NCBI RefSeq assembly: GCF_008806955.1
Contig: NZ_CP031727.1
Location: 3,300,001-3,364,000 of the forward strand
Direction: 5' to 3'
DNA length: 64,000 bases
DNA from: Cellvibrio sp. KY-YJ-3
GTDB taxonomy: Bacteria > Pseudomonadota > Gammaproteobacteria > Pseudomonadales > Cellvibrionaceae
The notes under the pieces are model-generated. The model had not been told where the DNA came from and searched no databases. It was given only the letters and a program-made list of their open reading frames with translations. The stretch's first letter is position 1; each line of letters starts with the position of its first letter. The translations under genes and the position numbers were made by a program. Below are positions 21,380 to 31,170 of this stretch, in pieces.

Positions 21380-22159
21380 ATGAATAATTTGGGAAGACTA
21401 TTTGATGGGTATGCTCGCACCGCCCGGCTATATCCTGCGCTGCTCACTTTCGCTCCATTGGTTTGGACATTGGGTTTTCTACATCCACAACTGATCACCG
21501 GAAGTAATTCAAAGATGGTGGCGGGCCTCATTGGAGCTTTTGGCGGATTATTCCTGTTATCCAGCATCGCTCGGCATTGTGGAAAGCGGGCTGAACTTCG
21601 GCTTTTCCGCCAATGGGAAGGGGCAAGAACTACAACGTTACTTCGTCATCGAGATGACTCCATTGACCCCTTTACTAAAGCAAGGTATCACTCTGCCCTT
21701 CAAAAATTGTGTGGAAAATTGCTCACACTACCGACTGAGCAGCAAGAGTTTGCGTCTCCTGCGGAAGCTGATCTCAAGTACGAGTCGGCAACTAAGTGCC
21801 TAATTGAAAATAGAAGGACGAAAGAGTATTGGCTGGTTCACCACGAGCTCGCCTCTTACGGATTTCGACGAAATCTTTTGGGTTTAAAACCCATCGGTCT
21901 AATCATTCTTACGATTGCAATCGCAGTGAATTTGATTAGCTGGTATCACGCTCTCCATCCGATTGATGAAGGTTTAAACCAAATTTTAGAAGACGTGATG
22001 ATCAGATGGCAGCTGTATGCGTTGTTTCTCGCGAATCTTGGATATTTTGCCGTCTGGCTCTTCATTATCAACGACCGCTTTGTTTTGCACTCGGCAGATG
22101 AATATGCGGTCGCGCTTTTCAGGTCTCTGGAGAGCTCTAATCATAAGAAAGTATCGTAG
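21380..22159 (+). CDS. Four-transmembrane protein of unknown family, first gene of the E2-E1/JAB operon
   Basis: A 259-aa protein that I do not recognise as a named family. Seen: two hydrophobic helices at about 18-35 and 47-64, a ~100-residue soluble middle rich in charged residues (65-168, with RTKEYWLVHHELASYGFRR just before the third helix), and two more helices at about 170-188 and 212-230, then a short hydrophilic tail. This 2+2 layout with a cytoplasmic middle resembles membrane-acting effectors of anti-phage systems, and it is first in a tight operon with MBL, E2-E1 and JAB genes. It is therefore a plausible membrane effector or target of the modification; that is inference. The ATG is preceded by GGAG at a long spacing. 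Confidence 0.75.
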   Translation: MNNLGRLFDGYARTARLYPALLTFAPLVWTLGFLHPQLITGSNSKMVAGLIGAFGGLFLLSSIARHCGKRAELRLFRQWEGARTTTLLRHRDDSIDPFTKARYHSALQKLCGKLLTLPTEQQEFASPAEADLKYESATKCLIENRRTKEYWLVHHELASYGFRRNLLGLKPIGLIILTIAIAVNLISWYHALHPIDEGLNQILEDVMIRWQLYALFLANLGYFAVWLFIINDRFVLHSADEYAVALFRSLESSNHKKVS

Positions 22160-22209
22160 GTTCATTTTGCACAAAAGGGTTTCAATATTTTCAACTAGTG
22201 AGGAAGGTT

Positions 22210-23388
22210 ATGGGTGCAAGAATAGAGTTTTTCCCTGTAGACAATGGCGATATGACTTTGCTTACATTAAATGGTGGGCGTCGAATACTGATAGATATCA
22301 ATATTCGGAAAGCTGCGGATGACGAGAATGATTCGACTACTATCGATGTTGCCTCATTACTCCGATCAAGATTAGATCGCGATGAAGATGGACGGTTGTA
22401 TGTTGATGTATTTCTACTGACTCACCCGGATAAGGATCACTGCTCTGGATTGGAGCGACACTTTCATTTAGGCCAACCTGATGAATGGAATGAGTCCGAA
22501 GATAAAATTTTAATTAAAGAAATGTGGTCATCTCCCATTATTTTCCGGCGTCAAAAAGAGGTTGAAGGAGGTCTTTGTCCAGACGCGGACGCTTGGTGGA
22601 AAGAGGCTCGTCGGAGGGCTCGCCTGTATAAATCGGCGACGAGGAAGGAAATCATAGGGAGCGGAAATTTAATTCAAATCTTGGGCGAGGACAAGGATAA
22701 TAAAACTGACGACTTAACTGAAATCCTTGTTAAGACCAATACTGAAATCGTTAAGATTTGCGGGGTGGAAGAGGGCGATTTTCGTGCGTGGTTACTTGCC
22801 CCCCAATTGGTATGTGATGATGAACTTGAGCAACTAACAGGAAAAAACCATTCTAGCACTGTGATTCGTTTTGCGATTCATGCTGATGGTATGGACGGTG
22901 CAGGGTTATTCCTGACTGGCGGCGACGCGCAAGTGGAAAATTGGGAGCGCGTTTGGAAGCGAAACAGCGATCATCCAGATAGATTGACTTACAACGTTTT
23001 GCAAGCTCCGCACCATTGTTCCTGGCGATCTCTTTCTTACGACAGTTGGAGCGATAAAGGAGATTCTGTGAAAGTCAGTCAAGATGCGCGAGAAGCCTTG
23101 GCTCAAGCAGCAGAAAAATCTTTCATCGTCGCAAGCTGCAAGGAAATCAAAGATGACAAAGATCCTCCTTGCATCCGCGCGAAGCAGGAGTACATTGACA
23201 TTCTTTCTGCTCGTAGTGGCGAATTTCTGTGTACAGCATCTGAGTGCGAAAATGATGTGCTCACACTAGAGATAGATCGCAACGGCCCTTCAAGACCATC
23301 AAAGAAAAATAAAGGCGGGCTCTTAAGTGGCTTGGCAGCAGCGATGCCTCGAAAAGTCGAAAAGGACGGTGGCGGGCGCTATGCCTAA
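22210..23388 (+). CDS. ComEC/Rec2-like metallo-beta-lactamase-fold hydrolase
   Basis: MBL-fold protein of 392 aa resembling the nuclease-like C-terminal domain of ComEC. Seen (numbering from ATG 22210): THPDKDH, with H72, D74, D76 and H77 as the first metal motif; NHSSTVIRF, the Asn-x-x-Ser strand typical of ComEC-type MBL; LTGGDAQ with D239; and APHHCSW with H268/H269. So the metal site looks complete. The ATG at 22210 has a good AGGAAGG just upstream, preferred over GTG 22198. The C-terminal ~25 residues are Lys/Gly-rich and end in DGGGRYA, a diglycine-containing tail like that of ubiquitin-like proteins before processing. It overlaps the E2-E1 gene by 8 bases. Likely activity: phosphodiesterase or nuclease; alternatively a nucleotide-signal hydrolase. 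Confidence 0.85.
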   Translation: MGARIEFFPVDNGDMTLLTLNGGRRILIDINIRKAADDENDSTTIDVASLLRSRLDRDEDGRLYVDVFLLTHPDKDHCSGLERHFHLGQPDEWNESEDKILIKEMWSSPIIFRRQKEVEGGLCPDADAWWKEARRRARLYKSATRKEIIGSGNLIQILGEDKDNKTDDLTEILVKTNTEIVKICGVEEGDFRAWLLAPQLVCDDELEQLTGKNHSSTVIRFAIHADGMDGAGLFLTGGDAQVENWERVWKRNSDHPDRLTYNVLQAPHHCSWRSLSYDSWSDKGDSVKVSQDAREALAQAAEKSFIVASCKEIKDDKDPPCIRAKQEYIDILSARSGEFLCTASECENDVLTLEIDRNGPSRPSKKNKGGLLSGLAAAMPRKVEKDGGGRYA

Positions 23389-25168
23389 TACGCTGCTTGC
23401 CGCTCATAGCAATTTCGATAGATCGAAGGGACTGCTATCTTCTTGGTTGCGACAAAATCTTTCGTCGGTGGTGGCACTGACGAAGGATTCACTAAACCTT
23501 TACAGAGAAGGAAGATTTATCGCGGGCTGGAGCGGCAATGTTGTTGTAGATGAAAAGGTACTTGCCTTCCATATATTAATTGATTCAAAATTTCCCTATA
23601 GCGCCATAAGGCTTGCTTATAAATCTGAAAATGTATACACGAAGTGGCCTCATGTTGATGACGTAACAGGGCTACTATGCTTGCCAAAAAAAAATGCTCC
23701 AAATGGAGATGTTCACGCTGCAATTTATTCATCGTTTTTCGAAGCGATGGTTCTTATTGAGAAGTGTCAGAATCCAGATTTTTTAAAAGAAGAGTTCAGG
23801 CGAGAGTTTTTGTCCTATTGGGAGCGTCGAGAAAACATAGCTGAAGATTCCATTCCAATCCGCTCTCTTCTTGACTTGAACAACACTAATTCTAGAACTA
23901 TACAAGTTTGGCGAGGAGCTAAATACACGCTGGTTGGTGAAACTAAGGAGCAGGTTTGCTCCTGGCTTCAAAATATTGGGTTTAAAGGCGAGCCCACGTT
24001 GGAGCGAGGAATCTTTGGTTTTTTAGCGGAAGCTCCTTATCCTCCGTTTCCGCAAAATCCAAACCAACTCTTCTCGTTATTAAGCCGCTGCACAAAGAGT
24101 ATTGATGCTTTACTATCCGGGTGCCAACATACAACACGCTCACTATTCGTTTTAGCTGCAAACTCTCCTACTGGTGTGGGTGTCATTGCTATGCAGTTGA
24201 GCGCAGTCACTAAATCCAAGCTAAAAGGCTTTCGAAAAAAAACTAAGTTAAGTTCGGCATCTAAGAAGATAATCTGGAATAAATACAGTGAGCTCAAATG
24301 TCTTGCTGTAGAACGATATGAAGCAAAATGGGTTCATGGCCGAGATTTAGATCCACACCACAAACTTGTGCAGCAAGCACATATCCTAGTTCTAGGATGT
24401 GGATCTTTAGGATCACAAGTTGCAATACGCTTAGCTCAAGCAGGTGTAGGTAATTTGACATTAGTCGACCCAGAACTGTTGGTTCCCGCAAACGTCGGTC
24501 GCCACGCATTAGGCATTGACTCAGTTAATAAGTCGAAGGCTCACGAACTTGCTAAACATATTCGGTCGCGTTTTCCGCACGTAAGCCATGCCCAAGGGTT
24601 TCGCATGCCGTGGCAGACTTATTTTGAGAGAACCGTCGGATTTGACAGTGATGTAAATGTATTGGTCTCGTGTTTAGGGGAATGGCCCGCAGATGGGCAA
24701 TTAGCGGAGTGGTATGCACGAACAAAACCCACATACCCTATAGCCTTCGGCTGGCTTGATGAGCACGGAACAGCGGCTCATGCGATTGCGCTGAATAATT
24801 CCACCCCTTCATTATTTTGTATTTTGAATGAGAATGGCAACCTGAGAATTCCCGAGACGCTTTGGAAATCAGATAGAGAGAAACAAGCTGAACCTGCGTG
24901 CGGCACTCTTTTTCAACCTTATGGGCCATTGGATCTTGCTAACGCGGAGATTCTGGTTGCTCGACTATGCTTGGATATATTAAAAGGAAGTGCCAGTTTT
25001 CCGTCTCATCGAATATACGCAGGTTCGACGGAGGATATTCAGCAAGCTGGAGGAGAATGGTCAGCAACGCATTTACAAAACCGCCCGGCTGAATATCAAG
25101 GTCCTTTTGAATATTCTAGATCAGTTCCCTACTGCGGTCAGTGCCCTGTCTGCGCGGAGAAATCATGA
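23381..25168 (+). CDS. E2-E1 fusion: ubiquitin-conjugating-like plus ThiF/E1-like activating enzyme
   Basis: A 595-aa protein with the architecture of Cap2 of type II CBASS: N-terminal E2-like domain, linker, C-terminal E1 adenylation domain. Seen: WPHVDDVTGLLCLP (89-102), matching the HPN...G.(I/V)CL active-site region of E2s, so C100 is the probable E2 cysteine; a poorly conserved middle (about 165-320); then the Rossmann ATP site VLGCGSLGSQVA (337-348), D363, and NVGRHALG with R374. An EPACGT segment (C507) is the candidate E1 cysteine. The C-terminus ends in CGQCPVC (585-591), a likely zinc knuckle. The ATG at 23381 overlaps the MBL stop. Predicted to adenylate a protein C-terminus and pass it via thioesters to a target. 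No CD-NTase or ubiquitin-like gene is adjacent. Confidence 0.87.
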   Translation: MPNTLLAAHSNFDRSKGLLSSWLRQNLSSVVALTKDSLNLYREGRFIAGWSGNVVVDEKVLAFHILIDSKFPYSAIRLAYKSENVYTKWPHVDDVTGLLCLPKKNAPNGDVHAAIYSSFFEAMVLIEKCQNPDFLKEEFRREFLSYWERRENIAEDSIPIRSLLDLNNTNSRTIQVWRGAKYTLVGETKEQVCSWLQNIGFKGEPTLERGIFGFLAEAPYPPFPQNPNQLFSLLSRCTKSIDALLSGCQHTTRSLFVLAANSPTGVGVIAMQLSAVTKSKLKGFRKKTKLSSASKKIIWNKYSELKCLAVERYEAKWVHGRDLDPHHKLVQQAHILVLGCGSLGSQVAIRLAQAGVGNLTLVDPELLVPANVGRHALGIDSVNKSKAHELAKHIRSRFPHVSHAQGFRMPWQTYFERTVGFDSDVNVLVSCLGEWPADGQLAEWYARTKPTYPIAFGWLDEHGTAAHAIALNNSTPSLFCILNENGNLRIPETLWKSDREKQAEPACGTLFQPYGPLDLANAEILVARLCLDILKGSASFPSHRIYAGSTEDIQQAGGEWSATHLQNRPAEYQGPFEYSRSVPYCGQCPVCAEKS

Positions 25169-25647
25169 CCTTACGATATGAGCTTCCTCTTCAGTGGGGG
25201 ATCGTTGAGTTTTCTTCTGAAGTGTTGGAGCATTTTGAAAAATTTAAGCAGCGTCATTTTTGCTCTCTTGAAGCGGGAGGACAACTTTTCTTTACTTTGA
25301 GCAAGGACAGTACTGTCACCAAGATAACCGACGTTACCGGACCTCGAGACACTGATAAAAGAGGGCGAAATAAATACGTTCCTGATCGTGCGGCTGAAAA
25401 AGTGGAAATTTCGGAGAGGTATGAGCGTAATTTACATTTTATCGGAGATTGGCATACGCACCGCGAAAAGTCACCACGCCCATCTCCTACTGATACGACT
25501 AATATCTACGATTTGGTTCGATTAAGTGATCATGACTTACCCGGATTCCTAATGGTAATTGTTGGATTGTCAGACTTTCCGTTCGGTCTTCATGTATCGT
25601 TCCATTCTGCAACGATGTCATATATTTTATCTCCGCTGTCCGACTAA
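25165..25647 (+). CDS. JAB/JAMM metalloprotease (Cap3/BilC-like deconjugase)
   Basis: Zinc peptidase of the JAB/MPN superfamily, 160 aa. Seen: E36 in SLEAGGQLF, then GDWHTH with H97 and H99, seven residues, then SPTD with S107 and D110. This is a complete JAMM motif (E...HxH-x7-S-x2-D). Relatives cut isopeptide bonds or trim tails of ubiquitin-like proteins, and Cap3 reverses Cap2 conjugation in CBASS. The ATG at 25165 overlaps the E2-E1 stop (ATGA) and has GGAGA upstream, so it is translationally coupled. It is the last gene of the operon; the 316 bases after it hold no gene that I can see. Predicted role: precursor trimming or deconjugation of whatever the E2-E1 fusion attaches. Confidence 0.9.
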   Translation: MTLRYELPLQWGIVEFSSEVLEHFEKFKQRHFCSLEAGGQLFFTLSKDSTVTKITDVTGPRDTDKRGRNKYVPDRAAEKVEISERYERNLHFIGDWHTHREKSPRPSPTDTTNIYDLVRLSDHDLPGFLMVIVGLSDFPFGLHVSFHSATMSYILSPLSD

Positions 25648-25963: not shown

Positions 25964-28738
25964 CTACATTACTTGACAATAGAATTGCTCAATTGCATTT
26001 TGTTTTTCACCAATGTGCTCAGAAATCTGTTGTTCTAGTGCCGCACGGTCATCAGTTATAATCAAAGTTTGATGCTTGGCCCTACTGATAGAGACGTAGA
26101 AAGATTTCTGTGATGCAAGATTACGGCGAAAGCTTTCAGCATGATAAATCACTCTATCTGCTGTCTGCCCTTGGGCAGCATGTGCTGTCGTAACGTAATC
26201 ATGAGACCAGTGCAGGCTAGCAGTTTCAGTGAGGTCAACCGTGACAAACTTACTCCTTGAAAAAGAGATGCGAGCAGTTTTCGCATTTTGATCAATTGAA
26301 TCCACTACGCCTTTCATTCCGTTAATTAAACCATTTCGGCGATCATTTAAAGTCCAAATAATTTTGTCACTTATTGCAAGCTCCGCCTCGACAGGTCGAT
26401 ACGCTTGGCTGCTTGCCCCCCATATACCTCTAGGGTTCCAAACCAGCTGGCGGCCCGATTTATCTGCAATTGTTAATGTGTTTTTTCTTGGATTTCGCTC
26501 CACGATACGCCAATAGGAATGTTTAGTGATTCCCTGCCTTTTGTAATCTTTTCCGAACAGGAGGCAATCACCAACTTGGTAATTGAAAACATCTGTACGG
26601 GAAGAGCGAGTGTGATCAACACGTTCAACTTGTGCAGTATTTAAAAATTTTTCACCGATAATACCTTCTTGTTTTAGAGCCTCTCGGATTTCACTGGTAA
26701 GTTCCCGCCGTCCAGCACGACTTGGATCTATTATCAGGGTTTTATCGCGCTCATCTAAGGTTAACGAAACCCATGACTCGACGATTTTTTTATACCGACT
26801 TGTTTTATCACCATCAACTTGAGTAACACTTCCTCCCTCGCCTTCCAATAATTGAAGCGCTTTTCTGGCGTCACCTTCTATACCGGCATACACAGCTGAT
26901 AATGCGCTCTCATTTTGTTGACGAACAATTTCATCAAGTTTAAATGTTTCAATTCCAAATTCTTGTAATTGTCGAAAAGCTGCGCCCGCCTCAACTGAGC
27001 CAAGTTGCTGAACATCACCCACCAACACTACACGGGCAGCCCGCTTTTCAGCCAACATGACCAACCGGTGCATATCCCGTGTGCTCAGAAGTGAAGCCTC
27101 ATCCACAATCCACACTTGCTGTTTTTTTGAATTCTTAGCATAAGACACGCGCAAAAGATGGCTAGCGACGGTTACAGCTGAGTTCAGTCCCGCGCCTTCC
27201 AAAAGTGATTTACAAGCTGATGATGAAGGAGCCATTCCAACAACTTCATAACCTTTGCTCACACAAATCTCAGAGAATTCGCGCAAAACAGTACTGGTTT
27301 TTGCCGTTCCGGCATAGCCTTGCAATGCAACGAAAGAAGCATGAGTTTGTAACAATCCGCGCAAAGCAGTTTGCTGGCTCAAATTCCATTCGTCGTAACC
27401 ATTTGCTTGGCTTTTTAGGTTTGCCTGAGAAATATAGGTTTCAACAATGTTCGAAGCCACTAAACTTTTAACAGCTCCATTACCACGACCAATACAATCA
27501 AGCAGGGAGTTTTCACGGGCAACAATTTCAGGAGTCGTATAACCCACAACTTCTCGCCAATTTTTAAACTGGCTCGAATATTCATGCAAGGAGCGCTTAA
27601 GGAGACTGCCATTTGCCTCCGCAATAGAAATCCATCGTTGAATCGCCTCAGATGAAACGCCGCAACCAACAGCCTTTTGATTAATCTGGTCAACAAGCCT
27701 CAACCGGGACACAATTGAATCCCTCTCAAACAGATCATCAACACAATCTTCGTAAATATCCTTAAGCCGACTAAAGCATTCATCACTGACGCGCTCCAAA
27801 TGATTAACTTCGGAGGCGCGGCAGACCGCCTCTCGTACTACGTCACGACTATCAAACCGGAATTCATCTTCTAATTTTTGCCAGCTATTAAGTAAGTCCA
27901 TTTTTTCGACGAATTCCTTTTTATCACGCAACCGGCGTGCGAGTTTCTCCTTTAACGCTGCTGGCGCTGACTCTCGTGTAAGACCTTGTTCATCGAGAGC
28001 CGCATCAATGGCATCACGTCTGCTACTAAATGCATTAATAATATCCTCAGAAAACCCTTCAATTTCAAAACTAGAATTTTGGGTTCTTCGTATGCCATAG
28101 CCTAATTTCCTGAGGTTTGCTGCTAATTCTTGACGATAATGCAATCCCACTTTCATCTGTACACAATACAGATGGCGAGATTCAATGCTACGCCAAACAC
28201 CCAACTCTTTTTCTGTAGCGTTTATCACTACTATGTGCGAGTGTAACTGGGGCTGTAAGCTTCTCGATGTATCGTGGCGGAACACCCCGCACAGCAGGTT
28301 ACTGGTAGCTACGTGATCAAACTGATCACGGCCGTATTCATCTAGAGTGTGCTCACGAATAAATGCTGCATGCTTTTCCATCATTCTAATTGCGGCATCA
28401 ACAGCAGCTTCATGGGCATGAATAACTCTCTCATCACCACCAACCAAAGCAGCCAAACTAACGCTTTTGGGTGGGGAAAGAACGCAATCAATGCCAGGCT
28501 TTCTCTCATTCTCACCATTCCTGAAAGCCCCGAGTTTTTGCCCTGCAATATCGCCCCTAAGGTAACAACTGAATAGATCGCGGCTCACGGGCTTCATATC
28601 TATGCCCAAGCTCTGCGCTCCTTTACCAGCCCATCTTGAGACACACGTTTCACCTGCGGCATAGTAGTCAGCATGGTCGCTATGCTCGTAATATGTTATC
28701 GCATGTTCAACACTTCGAATCGGAGATAGGGTCATCAT
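25964..28738 (-). CDS. MobF-family conjugative relaxase/helicase (TrwC/TraI type)
   Basis: A 924-aa relaxase that nicks the element's oriT and unwinds the strand for transfer. Seen: N-terminal tyrosine pairs Y16/Y17 and Y25/Y26, as in TrwC-type enzymes; the histidine triad in FRHDTSR (H155) and QLHSHIVV (H166, H168); and a RecD-like helicase half with Walker A QGYAGTAKT (473-481), Walker B WIVDEAS (543-549) and a C-terminal HAAQGQTADRVIYH motif. Length is close to TrwC (966 aa) and shorter than F TraI. Its start overlaps the stop of the upstream small protein gene (28735-28738), so they are coupled. Together with the coupling protein 770 bases away it forms the element's mobilization module. 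All key residues appear present. Confidence 0.93.
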   Translation of the reverse strand: MMTLSPIRSVEHAITYYEHSDHADYYAAGETCVSRWAGKGAQSLGIDMKPVSRDLFSCYLRGDIAGQKLGAFRNGENERKPGIDCVLSPPKSVSLAALVGGDERVIHAHEAAVDAAIRMMEKHAAFIREHTLDEYGRDQFDHVATSNLLCGVFRHDTSRSLQPQLHSHIVVINATEKELGVWRSIESRHLYCVQMKVGLHYRQELAANLRKLGYGIRRTQNSSFEIEGFSEDIINAFSSRRDAIDAALDEQGLTRESAPAALKEKLARRLRDKKEFVEKMDLLNSWQKLEDEFRFDSRDVVREAVCRASEVNHLERVSDECFSRLKDIYEDCVDDLFERDSIVSRLRLVDQINQKAVGCGVSSEAIQRWISIAEANGSLLKRSLHEYSSQFKNWREVVGYTTPEIVARENSLLDCIGRGNGAVKSLVASNIVETYISQANLKSQANGYDEWNLSQQTALRGLLQTHASFVALQGYAGTAKTSTVLREFSEICVSKGYEVVGMAPSSSACKSLLEGAGLNSAVTVASHLLRVSYAKNSKKQQVWIVDEASLLSTRDMHRLVMLAEKRAARVVLVGDVQQLGSVEAGAAFRQLQEFGIETFKLDEIVRQQNESALSAVYAGIEGDARKALQLLEGEGGSVTQVDGDKTSRYKKIVESWVSLTLDERDKTLIIDPSRAGRRELTSEIREALKQEGIIGEKFLNTAQVERVDHTRSSRTDVFNYQVGDCLLFGKDYKRQGITKHSYWRIVERNPRKNTLTIADKSGRQLVWNPRGIWGASSQAYRPVEAELAISDKIIWTLNDRRNGLINGMKGVVDSIDQNAKTARISFSRSKFVTVDLTETASLHWSHDYVTTAHAAQGQTADRVIYHAESFRRNLASQKSFYVSISRAKHQTLIITDDRAALEQQISEHIGEKQNAIEQFYCQVM

Positions 28739-29085
28739 AAGCTCACCCGCTCCTGGTGCTGATATCGGAGGAGCATCTTGTCAGCGCGGGATTTCAATTC
28801 GTCACCAGAAAGGTCTGAGCCTGATTGCTTTGCCGCTTCAGACGCCATGATTCTTGCTACGACTGATGCATGCAAAATCGCTGACGACACACGACTCAAA
28901 TTATCAATTTGATTAGAAATATCATCAGAATTTTTTGAAAGCCCACGGTCTATAAGTAACCTAGCAGCTGCACTTTGGCTTAAACCACGTTCTTCGGCAA
29001 AAATTTTTATTTGTTGATTCATTTTTTTACAGCAATGAAGCTGAATACGATAAGGATGTGATGCGCTCATTTTTCTTATACTCAC
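28735..29085 (-). CDS. Small relaxosome accessory-type protein (TrwA/MobC-like)
   Basis: A 116-aa protein directly upstream of, and overlapping by four bases, the relaxase gene. Seen: an N-terminal basic part and a segment KKMNQQIKIFAEERGLSQSA that resembles a ribbon-helix-helix DNA-binding module, followed by a helical C-terminus with likely oligomerisation helices. Relaxosome proteins of this kind (TrwA in R388) bind near oriT and often repress their own operon. TGAGTCAC-like repeats directly upstream (29089-29163) are candidate binding sites. Family membership is by size, context and the short basic motif, so it is tentative. The start could also be the second in-frame Met. Confidence 0.65.
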   Translation of the reverse strand: MSIRKMSASHPYRIQLHCCKKMNQQIKIFAEERGLSQSAAARLLIDRGLSKNSDDISNQIDNLSRVSSAILHASVVARIMASEAAKQSGSDLSGDELKSRADKMLLRYQHQERVSL

Positions 29086-29088
29086 TAT

Positions 29089-29163
29089 TGGGTCACTTTA
29101 TTATTGGTTTTTTAGCCGCTTGAGTCATCAATGACTCATACTAACTTTTTCTCTTTGAGTCAC
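29089..29163. repeat. TGAGTCAC-like repeats upstream of the relaxosome gene
   Basis: Four copies of a TGAGTCA-type octamer: TGGGTCAC at 29089, TGAGTCAT at 29121 forming a perfect inverted repeat with ATGACTCA at 29131-29138 (two-base loop), and TGAGTCAC at 29156. They sit within 80 bases of the accessory gene start, where a ribbon-helix-helix repressor/oriT-binding protein would act. Confidence 0.65.
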
Positions 29164-29199
29164 CATTACTCTAGCTTTTCCGCAGGAAAACACATCTGC

Positions 29200-29263
29200 A
29201 CAAGTGTGCGTGAGGTGTCCGTTATATTTGTAGCGTTAGCTACAGATATAACGTTTACCTTTC
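29200..29263. other. Candidate oriT region with 14-bp inverted repeat
   Basis: A 14-base inverted repeat, GTTATATTTGTAGC (29221-29234) and GCTACAGATATAAC (29239-29252), one mismatch and a four-base loop, is flanked on one side by GTGCGTGAGGTGTCC. MobF oriTs place the nick a few bases from such an inverted repeat. The position between the relaxosome genes and the coupling protein fits. The nick base is not identified, and the assignment rests on location and structure. Confidence 0.5.
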
Positions 29264-29265
29264 TA

Positions 29266-29297
29266 ATCCCACTGCTTAAGCAGTGGGATGTTTTTTT
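29266..29297 (+). terminator. Rho-independent terminator, plus strand, in the mobilization region
   Basis: ATCCCACTGC (29266-29275), loop TTAA, GCAGTGGGAT (29280-29289), then G and seven T. A perfect 10-base stem with a strong T-tract on the plus strand. No plus-strand gene ends just before it, so it may insulate the oriT region or end a small plus-strand transcript. The remaining 29298-29511 is AT-rich, with no gene seen. Confidence 0.75.
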
Positions 29298-29511
29298 AAA
29301 AATACACATCACGTGCACGTTATGAAAGAAATCCACATCTATTTCAAAATAGAGATTATTCACGGTTCCTATATTTTGGTTCAATAATAATTTATTAGTC
29401 ACAACTAACTCCTGACTACCGATGATCACTCACGAAACAGATTACCTTCAAAATCATGGCCGGCATCACAAAAAGGAGAACAAAACCAAACCATTTAAAA
29501 TTTTAAAGGAG

Positions 29512-31170
29512 TTATATTTCATCTAGATCGGCATCCAGCTTATTTTTAATTTTAGACAATGGAGCTAACTGACTCCGTTGCAAGCGATTAACAACAGGCA
29601 AGTCAATGAGGGGGACTCGTAGGCGGGACCAACCAATGCCTGCGATTTTTATGTAGCCCCGGAGGTCGTCCAGCTGCATAATTTCCGACGCCAATACCGC
29701 CCGACGTGACTCAATTTTTGTTGTGGTGGATACACTTCCTTTTCCGCTGTGAGTTTTGCTTTCTGCCAAAATTTCACCATCACCAATCGAGCGACTTAGA
29801 TATTCCGCGGTGTCTGCATCTGGAGTTCGCAAAATCACGCTGTGACCGACACTACCTATAATCGATTTGGTTTCATCCGCACCGTAAATAGAATAGAGTT
29901 GATTAATATTTTGAAATGCTAATGTTAGATTAACTCCATATTTACGCAGCTTTGACACGGCCTGCGAAAGACCTCCAATCCGTCCATTTGATGATAATTC
30001 ATCCAAAAACATCCAAATTCTGCGCTTAGTACTGGGCACGAGACTAAATCCTTCGGCAATCATAAGGTTGATCCACATTCCTCTAAGTATTGAAGTAGAA
30101 GCCGCAGTGGCATCATCGTAAATAATCCAAAGATTCCCTTTTTTATGGTCACTTGACATCCAATTTCTCACACTAAAAGATTTGTGATCCGCGTCCGGGT
30201 TTAAAAGCTCAAGCGACTTAATCGCCTCGCTAACAATTCCAAGCACATCGTCAATTTTTTTCTCGTTCGAGCTATCAAATACTCTATGCGCCGTCGTTCC
30301 TTTTACCAACTCTCGTAGCTCTTCACGGCTTGCATATGAAGCATAATAAATAAGATCGCGATTTGTGGTTTTACCTCGCTCCAAACACTTTTCAAAGATC
30401 ACAGTCATTACACCTCTCGCAGATTCGAACCATGCCTTTGATTCGCCAACACCTTCAGCAATAAGAGAATTAGCAATCAAACGACAATCCGTTTTCACTT
30501 TTATGTCAGCAAAAGGTGATGTGTCGATTCCGTTCACATGTACCGGGGATAAAACTATGTCGTTAACTCGTCCCAACCTGCGGTATATATCGCCATTAAT
30601 ATCCACACATGCATAGGAGTCGCCACGCCGGAGTATCGAAAGTATCATCTTTAGTATGAGCTGCGTCTTTCCAGTACCAGGTTCTCCGCACAATAAAAAA
30701 CATCGCATTTCTAGCTCTGTGGGAATTGCATACCCTCCAATTGAGATCGGAACTTTTGACACGCCCTTTCTCTTAATCGCTTTTATCATTTTTTCTCGAG
30801 GCATCAATTTTGCACCCCGAATGATTTTTTCCGACCCAGTCATTAGTATCATTATGATGAGCAGTGTCCATGCCACTAAGGCTCCGACAACTAAACTTAC
30901 CCAGCTAGCGAGCTCTACCCATGTAGTGATTAGGCGGGGAAATGACTGTGCAGTGCCAAGAACCATCCGTTCGAAAATAGCTGACTCTTGATATAGGTTT
31001 CTAAGTAGATCCGCAAAGGTGAACCAGCCATATGTAGATGCACCCATAAACGCAATGAAGATTAGAGAGCCACTAGCTTTACCTCGTGCAAAACCGATAA
31101 GTAGTGCTAACATTGCCGCAGCGAGTGCCGATATTTGTGTTGTTAAAACTGGGGGCATATCGAAGTTCAT
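29512..31170 (-). CDS. Type IV coupling protein (TrwB/TraD family)
   Basis: Inner-membrane DNA-pumping ATPase of 552 aa that brings the relaxase-DNA complex to a type IV secretion channel. Seen: two or three N-terminal hydrophobic segments (about 9-27, 35-52 and 92-111), Walker A CGEPGTGKT (161-169) and a Walker B strand reading RIWMFLDELSS, then the conserved AFQNINQLYSIYG motif. Length fits TrwB (507 aa) more than TraD. Its start overlaps the AlpA-like stop (ATGA), so these two are coupled. No other T4SS genes exist in the element, which must borrow a helper's channel. Confidence 0.92.
   Translation of the reverse strand: MNFDMPPVLTTQISALAAAMLALLIGFARGKASGSLIFIAFMGASTYGWFTFADLLRNLYQESAIFERMVLGTAQSFPRLITTWVELASWVSLVVGALVAWTLLIIMILMTGSEKIIRGAKLMPREKMIKAIKRKGVSKVPISIGGYAIPTELEMRCFLLCGEPGTGKTQLILKMILSILRRGDSYACVDINGDIYRRLGRVNDIVLSPVHVNGIDTSPFADIKVKTDCRLIANSLIAEGVGESKAWFESARGVMTVIFEKCLERGKTTNRDLIYYASYASREELRELVKGTTAHRVFDSSNEKKIDDVLGIVSEAIKSLELLNPDADHKSFSVRNWMSSDHKKGNLWIIYDDATAASTSILRGMWINLMIAEGFSLVPSTKRRIWMFLDELSSNGRIGGLSQAVSKLRKYGVNLTLAFQNINQLYSIYGADETKSIIGSVGHSVILRTPDADTAEYLSRSIGDGEILAESKTHSGKGSVSTTTKIESRRAVLASEIMQLDDLRGYIKIAGIGWSRLRVPLIDLPVVNRLQRSQLAPLSKIKNKLDADLDEI

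Follow-up and report, generated by a model that had tools for sequence, protein, structure and literature searches.

Which protein is conjugated by an E2-E1 enzyme whose operon encodes no ubiquitin-like protein? This question is raised by a stretch of 64,000 nucleotides from Cellvibrio sp. KY-YJ-3 (contig NZ_CP031727.1, positions 3,300,001 to 3,364,000; hereafter the window), in which four genes in one direction encode a membrane protein, an MBL-fold protein, an E2-E1 fusion and a JAB protein. No ubiquitin-like gene was found among the reading frames of the operon, and no search was aimed at one farther away; a hidden one within the operon was rejected, because every reading frame of the four genes was already assigned. 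The view that the MBL protein is itself the conjugated protein of the E2-E1 enzyme is well supported, by a tail class that tracks the E2-E1 tree and by the same tail on CBASS and Pycsar cyclases. Because the MBL protein is likely the E2-E1 substrate, the missing ubiquitin-like gene is explained, as an earlier sequence-only reading had proposed. That reading placed the activated end at a Gly-Gly exposed after the JAB peptidase removes RYA. From sequence comparison, we consider it quite probable that the MBL-fold enzyme would instead stand in for ubiquitin through its terminal residue, Ala392.

The MBL tail and its homologues

The C-terminus of the MBL frame reads ...NKGGLLSGLAAAMPRKVEKDGGGRYA, and its last residues are VEKDGGGRYA. 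The relevant features are as follows.

22210..23388, + strand: MBL-fold protein, 392 aa (NCBIfam NF058524 '6A-MBL_enzyme', 392 bits, cut-off 220)
23308..23385, + strand: C-terminal tail of the MBL protein, probably disordered (residues 367-392; pLDDT <50)
23368..23376, + strand: codons GGT GGC GGG of Gly387-389, likely also the E2-E1 ribosome-binding site (from the sequence)
23377..23385, + strand: Arg390-Tyr391-Ala392, the proposed conjugation terminus (Tyr-Ala invariant in its class, 7/7 MBLs)
23381..25168, + strand: Cap2-like E2-E1 fusion, 595 aa (PF14461 and PF00899; PADLOC E1-E2, 472 bits)

A GTG at 22198, upstream of 22210, is a possible alternative start of the MBL gene. The confident core of the AlphaFold model covers residues 1-366, and the tail behind it is probably disordered because pLDDT is <50 over residues 367-392; the description of a probably disordered tail finishing DGGGRYA right before the E2-E1 gene was thus confirmed. 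The nearest fold of the core was the ComEC MBL domain (9IC4, Z 22.7), and the metal ligands H72, D74, D76, H77, D239, H268 and H269 did not vary in 44 MBL homologues. The model therefore has an MBL fold and not the beta-grasp fold of a ubiquitin-like protein.

A contig scan of genomes gave 75 MBL loci, and more were added from genome and plasmid searches; after near-copies were removed, 54 MBLs with E2-E1 were left. Beside fused E2-E1-JAB proteins, nearly all MBLs ended in HG (30) or RAG (14), with or without 1-8 extra residues, and 3 had other ends. Beside split E2-E1 proteins, all seven ended in YA: GGGRYA in the window, SGRRYA (L001), GRNIYA (L060), GKSTYA (L061), AQPAYA (L105), GGKGYA (L136) and GKRTYA (L137). 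Gly-Gly was present in three of these seven (GGG in the window, GG in L061 and L136) and in none of L001, L060, L105 and L137. Conservation in homologous operons, earlier set as a test, held for the whole tail and failed for Gly-Gly, which is thus not the conserved terminal feature expected of a ubiquitin-like protein. Such tails were absent from the MBL-fold and ComEC-like proteins that the same search had found without an adjoining E2-E1. On an Acinetobacter plasmid, a second, different MBL-fold gene without the tail lies right downstream of a fused 6A-MBL operon (L108:8492-9562).

These counts bear on the scheme in which JAB trims RYA and E2-E1 activates the exposed Gly-Gly, in the style of a ubiquitin precursor. 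Three glycines precede RYA in the window, and GGGR occurs in many CD-NTases of the same ligase clade. However, Gly-Gly is absent from four of the seven YA-class MBLs, in which Tyr-Ala is invariant. Moreover, Cap2 is linked to CD-NTases by a thioester at their terminal Gly or Ala and joins them to lysines, for which Gly-Gly is not needed (PMC10097602). In Bacillus cereus, the cyclase peptide KPGGFA is conjugated to PspA through Ala331, past its GG-F, and Cap3 removes the conjugate without a scar, so that the Ala stays on the cyclase (PMC11153139). Gly-Gly was rejected as the activated end on two grounds: it lacks conservation, and conjugation of the characterised Cap2 substrates goes through their last residue; trimming of this kind is very unlikely in the window. 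What the YA class shares with Cap2 substrates is a flexible tail with a conserved terminal Ala (7/7) beside a full E2-E1.

Extra residues were observed among the relatives. Of the 44 HG/RAG MBLs, 19 carry 1-8 residues past the conserved Gly (e.g., L054, L057, L107, L135), and these would need removal before conjugation through that Gly. A CD-NTase beside a related E2-E1 (L119:1784-2836) runs on for GSALP past RYA; it is a possible precursor in need of trimming, and a JAB gene is present there, though unannotated. Because of these extensions, precursor trimming may occur elsewhere, but they come after the [YHF][AG] or HG/RAG motif and not after Gly-Gly.

The motif had zero entropy in the 30 HG and 14 RAG MBLs, and the surrounding linker was variable, mostly at 2-3 bits. 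Could the MBL instead be the target or a regulator, whose tail docks on E2-E1 while the C-terminus of another protein is conjugated? The tail in the window contains several lysines, and few substrates, and recent ones, are known for bacterial E2-E1 systems (PMC12355090). The linker lysines are not conserved, however; the conserved residues are final and small (A/G), as adenylation of a carboxylate needs, and the operon reading frames offer no ubiquitin-like protein as the alternative substrate. This role for the MBL is very unlikely.

Tail classes, ligase trees and unrelated partners

The reading of the MBL as the substrate gained support from the trees. In the E2-E1 tree (72 proteins), HG, RAG, YA and RLG each formed a single clade, and the five tail labels required 4 changes, the minimum, with a mean of 36.3 after shuffling and 0 of 200 shuffles as low. 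When the MBL tree was built from sequences lacking the tail, these labels required 6 changes (minimum 3), with 3 for the YA class alone, and none of 200 bootstrap trees united the YA class in one MBL clade. The window and L001 sat among HG/RAG proteins on the MBL tree, away from the other YA MBLs. On the E2-E1 tree they paired with the CBASS Cap2 of Sulfitobacter L103 (support 95; 94/93 in a second tree), and the other five MBL-linked split ligases formed a separate branch. Two re-pairings of the MBL with a split E2-E1 are likely, and the free trees favour two independent origins of the split MBL systems.

The same kind of tail was found on proteins of unrelated folds. The plasmid E2-E1s most like that of the window were located behind CD-NTases, which ended in DGDERYA (Sulfitobacter L103), STGGGRHA (Agrobacterium L104), SAGGGRHA (L115, L117, L123, L124), KRGGGRYG (L118), KRGGDRYG (L114), KRGETRYA (L120) and EGGRYAGSALP (L119). 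CD-NTases from genomes ended in VEKQGGGRYA (L133), TEKRGGGRFA (L110) and RRNDGGGRFG (L111), and longer tails read VDKRGGGRYG in L118 and VNSAGGGRHA in L115. The end of the L133 cyclase is identical to that of the window at 9 of 10 positions. Related E2-E1s had 12 partners other than MBLs, and all of these carried [YHF][AG], followed in one by GSALP. CBASS loci with a more distant Cap2 had other ends, namely RLG (L112, L113, L121, L125), QGA or SKV.

Besides MBLs and CD-NTases, a third unrelated fold with a related tail beside this ligase clade was the Pycsar cyclase PycC. In Agrobacterium salinitolerans (L116:1266-4665), a Cap2-like E2-E1 comes next after PycC (PADLOC PycC, 612 bits), whose tail is VHSSGGTRHA; a JAB was not found next to the pair. 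This locus shares with the window the ligase clade, the kind of tail (SSGGTRHA) and the 8-base overlap, and differs in having a PycC cyclase as the partner. Because plasmid PycC relatives align only to about residue 491 of the 533 of L116 PycC, its tail looks like an addition. At two other loci (L145:3001-5863, L146:3001-4578), PycC cyclases lie by an E2-only gene and have repeated PMRAH ends (EPMRAHASK, EPMRAHSKL); perhaps these are another ligase-specific tail.

Gene overlap and chance

The MBL stop codon (23386-23388) and the E2-E1 ATG (23381-23383) confirm the overlap of 8 bases described earlier (23381-23388). The tail could accordingly be a by-product of the gene junction, with GGTGGCGGG as the ribosome-binding site, Tyr-Ala arising from the overlapping ATG, and the junction moving with E2-E1. 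In its favour, the 8-base overlap was present in all seven YA-class MBLs, in most CD-NTase partners and in L116 PycC, the codons GGT GGC GGG are at the position expected for the E2-E1 ribosome-binding site, and a Tyr/His plus Ala/Gly end is frequent among unrelated genes that overlap in this way. On the other hand, the motif is kept without a start codon on the Tyr-Ala/Gly codons in the CD-NTases L103, L114, L119 and L120. Of the HG MBLs, only 9 of 30 have the E2-E1 start codon on the motif, and of the RAG MBLs 0 of 14, which leaves 21 of 30 and 14 of 14 with the motif free of it. Within the HG and RAG motifs, every synonymous codon was used, with Arg codons of both families in RAG, and the role of the terminal residue in Cap2 systems is experimental (PMC10097602, PMC11153139). 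We regard a mere junction by-product as quite improbable.

The sequence-only reading had itself warned that the tail might be due to chance or to the overlap. Background C-termini were drawn from the gathered loci (n=513, with n=1267 for the ranking of tails). Gly-Gly alone was unremarkable, occurring within the last 7 residues of 6.6% of the 513. The overlap extends no further than the codons of Tyr (TAT) and Ala (GCC), and the whole tail is far from chance. Among the 1267 C-termini, nearly all the best matches to VEKDGGGRYA came from proteins just upstream of an E2-E1 gene. Of the 513 background proteins, 0.6% had HG within their last 5 residues, and 0% had RAG within their last 11.

Several points weigh against conjugation through the MBL tail as the source of these patterns. 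The tail classes were set by eye by the author of the analysis from the tails, before the trees were built. In all seven YA-class MBLs the ATG of E2-E1 overlaps the Tyr-Ala codons and makes such residues more likely; of 12 unrelated gene pairs that overlap by the same 8 bases, about 4 end in [YHF][AG], and the overlap could help to keep Tyr-Ala in the seven split MBLs. Similar tails could also stem partly from the exchange of E2-E1 genes together with a few preceding codons. Finally, approximately unbiased (AU) tests did not reject a common origin for the split MBL systems (MBL tree, p 0.17; E2-E1 tree, p 0.20). These tests give no proof of two origins, and the number of independent re-pairings is therefore uncertain.

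The operon, its proposed mechanism and known systems

The remaining features of the operon are the following.

21380..22159, + strand: membrane-protein gene, 259 aa (all-helical model; no named family)
23678-23680, + strand: codon of E2 Cys100, within E2-E1
24500-24502, + strand: codon of adenylation-domain Arg374, within E2-E1
24899-24901, + strand: codon of E1 Cys507, within E2-E1
25165..25647, + strand: stand-alone Cap3-like JAB peptidase, 160 aa (PF14464; PADLOC JAB, 165.6 bits)

The catalytic residues were intact across the E2-E1 homologues (E2 Cys 72/72, Arg 72/72, E1 Cys 59/59), and so was the JAB metal motif in the window (E36, H97-x-H99-x10-D110). The solved structures nearest to the window E2-E1 were those of Cap2 from type II CBASS (7TSX, 7TO3). 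We infer conjugation itself, Ala392 as its residue and its reversibility from the sequences. In the mechanism that we propose, an MBL-fold enzyme would replace ubiquitin in a four-gene module of anti-phage type. The E1 half would adenylate the carboxylate of MBL Ala392, which would then be held as a thioester on Cys507 and handed to Cys100 of the E2 half; the E2 half would join Ala392 to a lysine, or another amine, of the target. JAB would cut the MBL-target bond again, and trimming of RYA would be unnecessary. Residues 367-389 would serve as a flexible linker that brings the tail to the active site, and R-x-[YHF]-[AG] would be the part read by this ligase clade. The ComEC-like MBL, whose fold is that of nucleases or phosphodiesterases, would carry out the defence together with the membrane protein. 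If Cap2 systems are a guide, conjugation might prime the MBL, as reported for Cap2 (PMC10097602), or restrain it, as reported for conjugation on PspA (PMC11153139).

In 2006, the fusion of E2-E1-JAB beside an MBL was described as row 6a and the CBASS type as row 6b (Iyer et al., PMC1779556); the window combines the MBL of 6a with split enzymes of the 6b type. Like type II CBASS with Cap2/Cap3, it has an E2-E1 fusion with the E2 Cys, the Arg and the E1 Cys, a separate JAB, and a partner gene directly upstream that encodes a disordered tail ending in Ala/Gly. Its E2-E1 sits among CBASS Cap2 proteins on the tree. In contrast, the partner is an MBL-fold protein and not a CD-NTase, and the place of the nucleotide-activated effector of CBASS is taken by a conserved membrane protein. 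CD-NTase models in Pfam, NCBIfam or PADLOC matched no gene of the four, and JAB reached only 44 bits against the NCBIfam Cap3 model, under the cut-off of 200. With the 6A-MBL system (NF058523/NF058524; row 6a, PMC1779556), labelled 'anti-phage 6A-MBL system' in NCBIfam, the window shares the MBL family and the membrane-protein neighbour, which also occurs at fused 6A loci. However, its tail is RYA, whereas 6A tails are HG or RAG, and its E2-E1 and JAB are separate, Cap2/Cap3-like proteins that do not form the triple-module E2-E1-JAB protein of NF058523. Against this '6A-MBL_cap2_3' model they scored 64 and 34 bits, respectively, far below the cut-off of 320, and the fused protein of Escherichia coli pSE11-2 scored 662. 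Because its MBL belongs to the 6A-MBL family and its ligase lies outside, the locus is a split, Cap2-like variant of 6A-MBL. Bil/ISG15-like and other ubiquitin-like operons share the E1, E2 and JAB functions but encode a beta-grasp ubiquitin-like protein, of which the frames of the window operon hold none. No papers on 6A-MBL were found in the open literature, where the search covered no preprints and few subscription papers, so the MBL may already have been recognised as a substrate in other work.

The membrane protein occurred in exactly 5 of 146 related genomes, at the same locus in those with a 6A-MBL above cut-off, and in 0 of the 141 others. All 38 long MBL loci examined had a membrane protein, 18 of the window family, 15 of a second, 4 of a third and 1 of another. 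The window protein gave an all-helical model (pLDDT 90); no family of Pfam, NCBIfam or PADLOC reached its cut-off, and the PDB held no significant fold match. A likeness to G-protein-coupled receptors (GPCRs), with middling VIA scores such as helical bundles give, was not taken as a match. Proteins of the second family (L003, L029, L054, L064, L106 and others) have about 210-235 aa, at most four membrane segments and an N-terminal LKxxN-like motif; the third family was seen at L060, L061, L105 and L107. The membrane protein is a candidate effector, anchor or target.

On the opposite strand beside the operon (25964-31170), two reading frames resemble, by sequence only, a conjugative relaxase/helicase and a coupling protein, and the module may therefore travel on a conjugative element. 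Viral contigs and phage records yielded one fused 6A-MBL contig (L093), one weak phage match and no E2-E1 of the window type.

Taken together, we think it somewhat more probable than otherwise that E2-E1/JAB and a short tail form a portable tagging module, used on at least three unrelated immune enzymes (CD-NTase, PycC and MBL), each a 'ubiquitin' without the ubiquitin fold, in which the tail tracks the ligase and not the enzyme and the membrane protein is obligatory in the MBL version. The MBL enzyme and the Pycsar cyclase would be concrete candidate substrates, and the tail code would predict which ligase serves which substrate. The analysis also names a membrane protein that is absent from current models of the 6A-MBL system. 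If true, conjugation of the MBL would account for how 6A operons, described since 2006 (PMC1779556), work without a ubiquitin-like protein.
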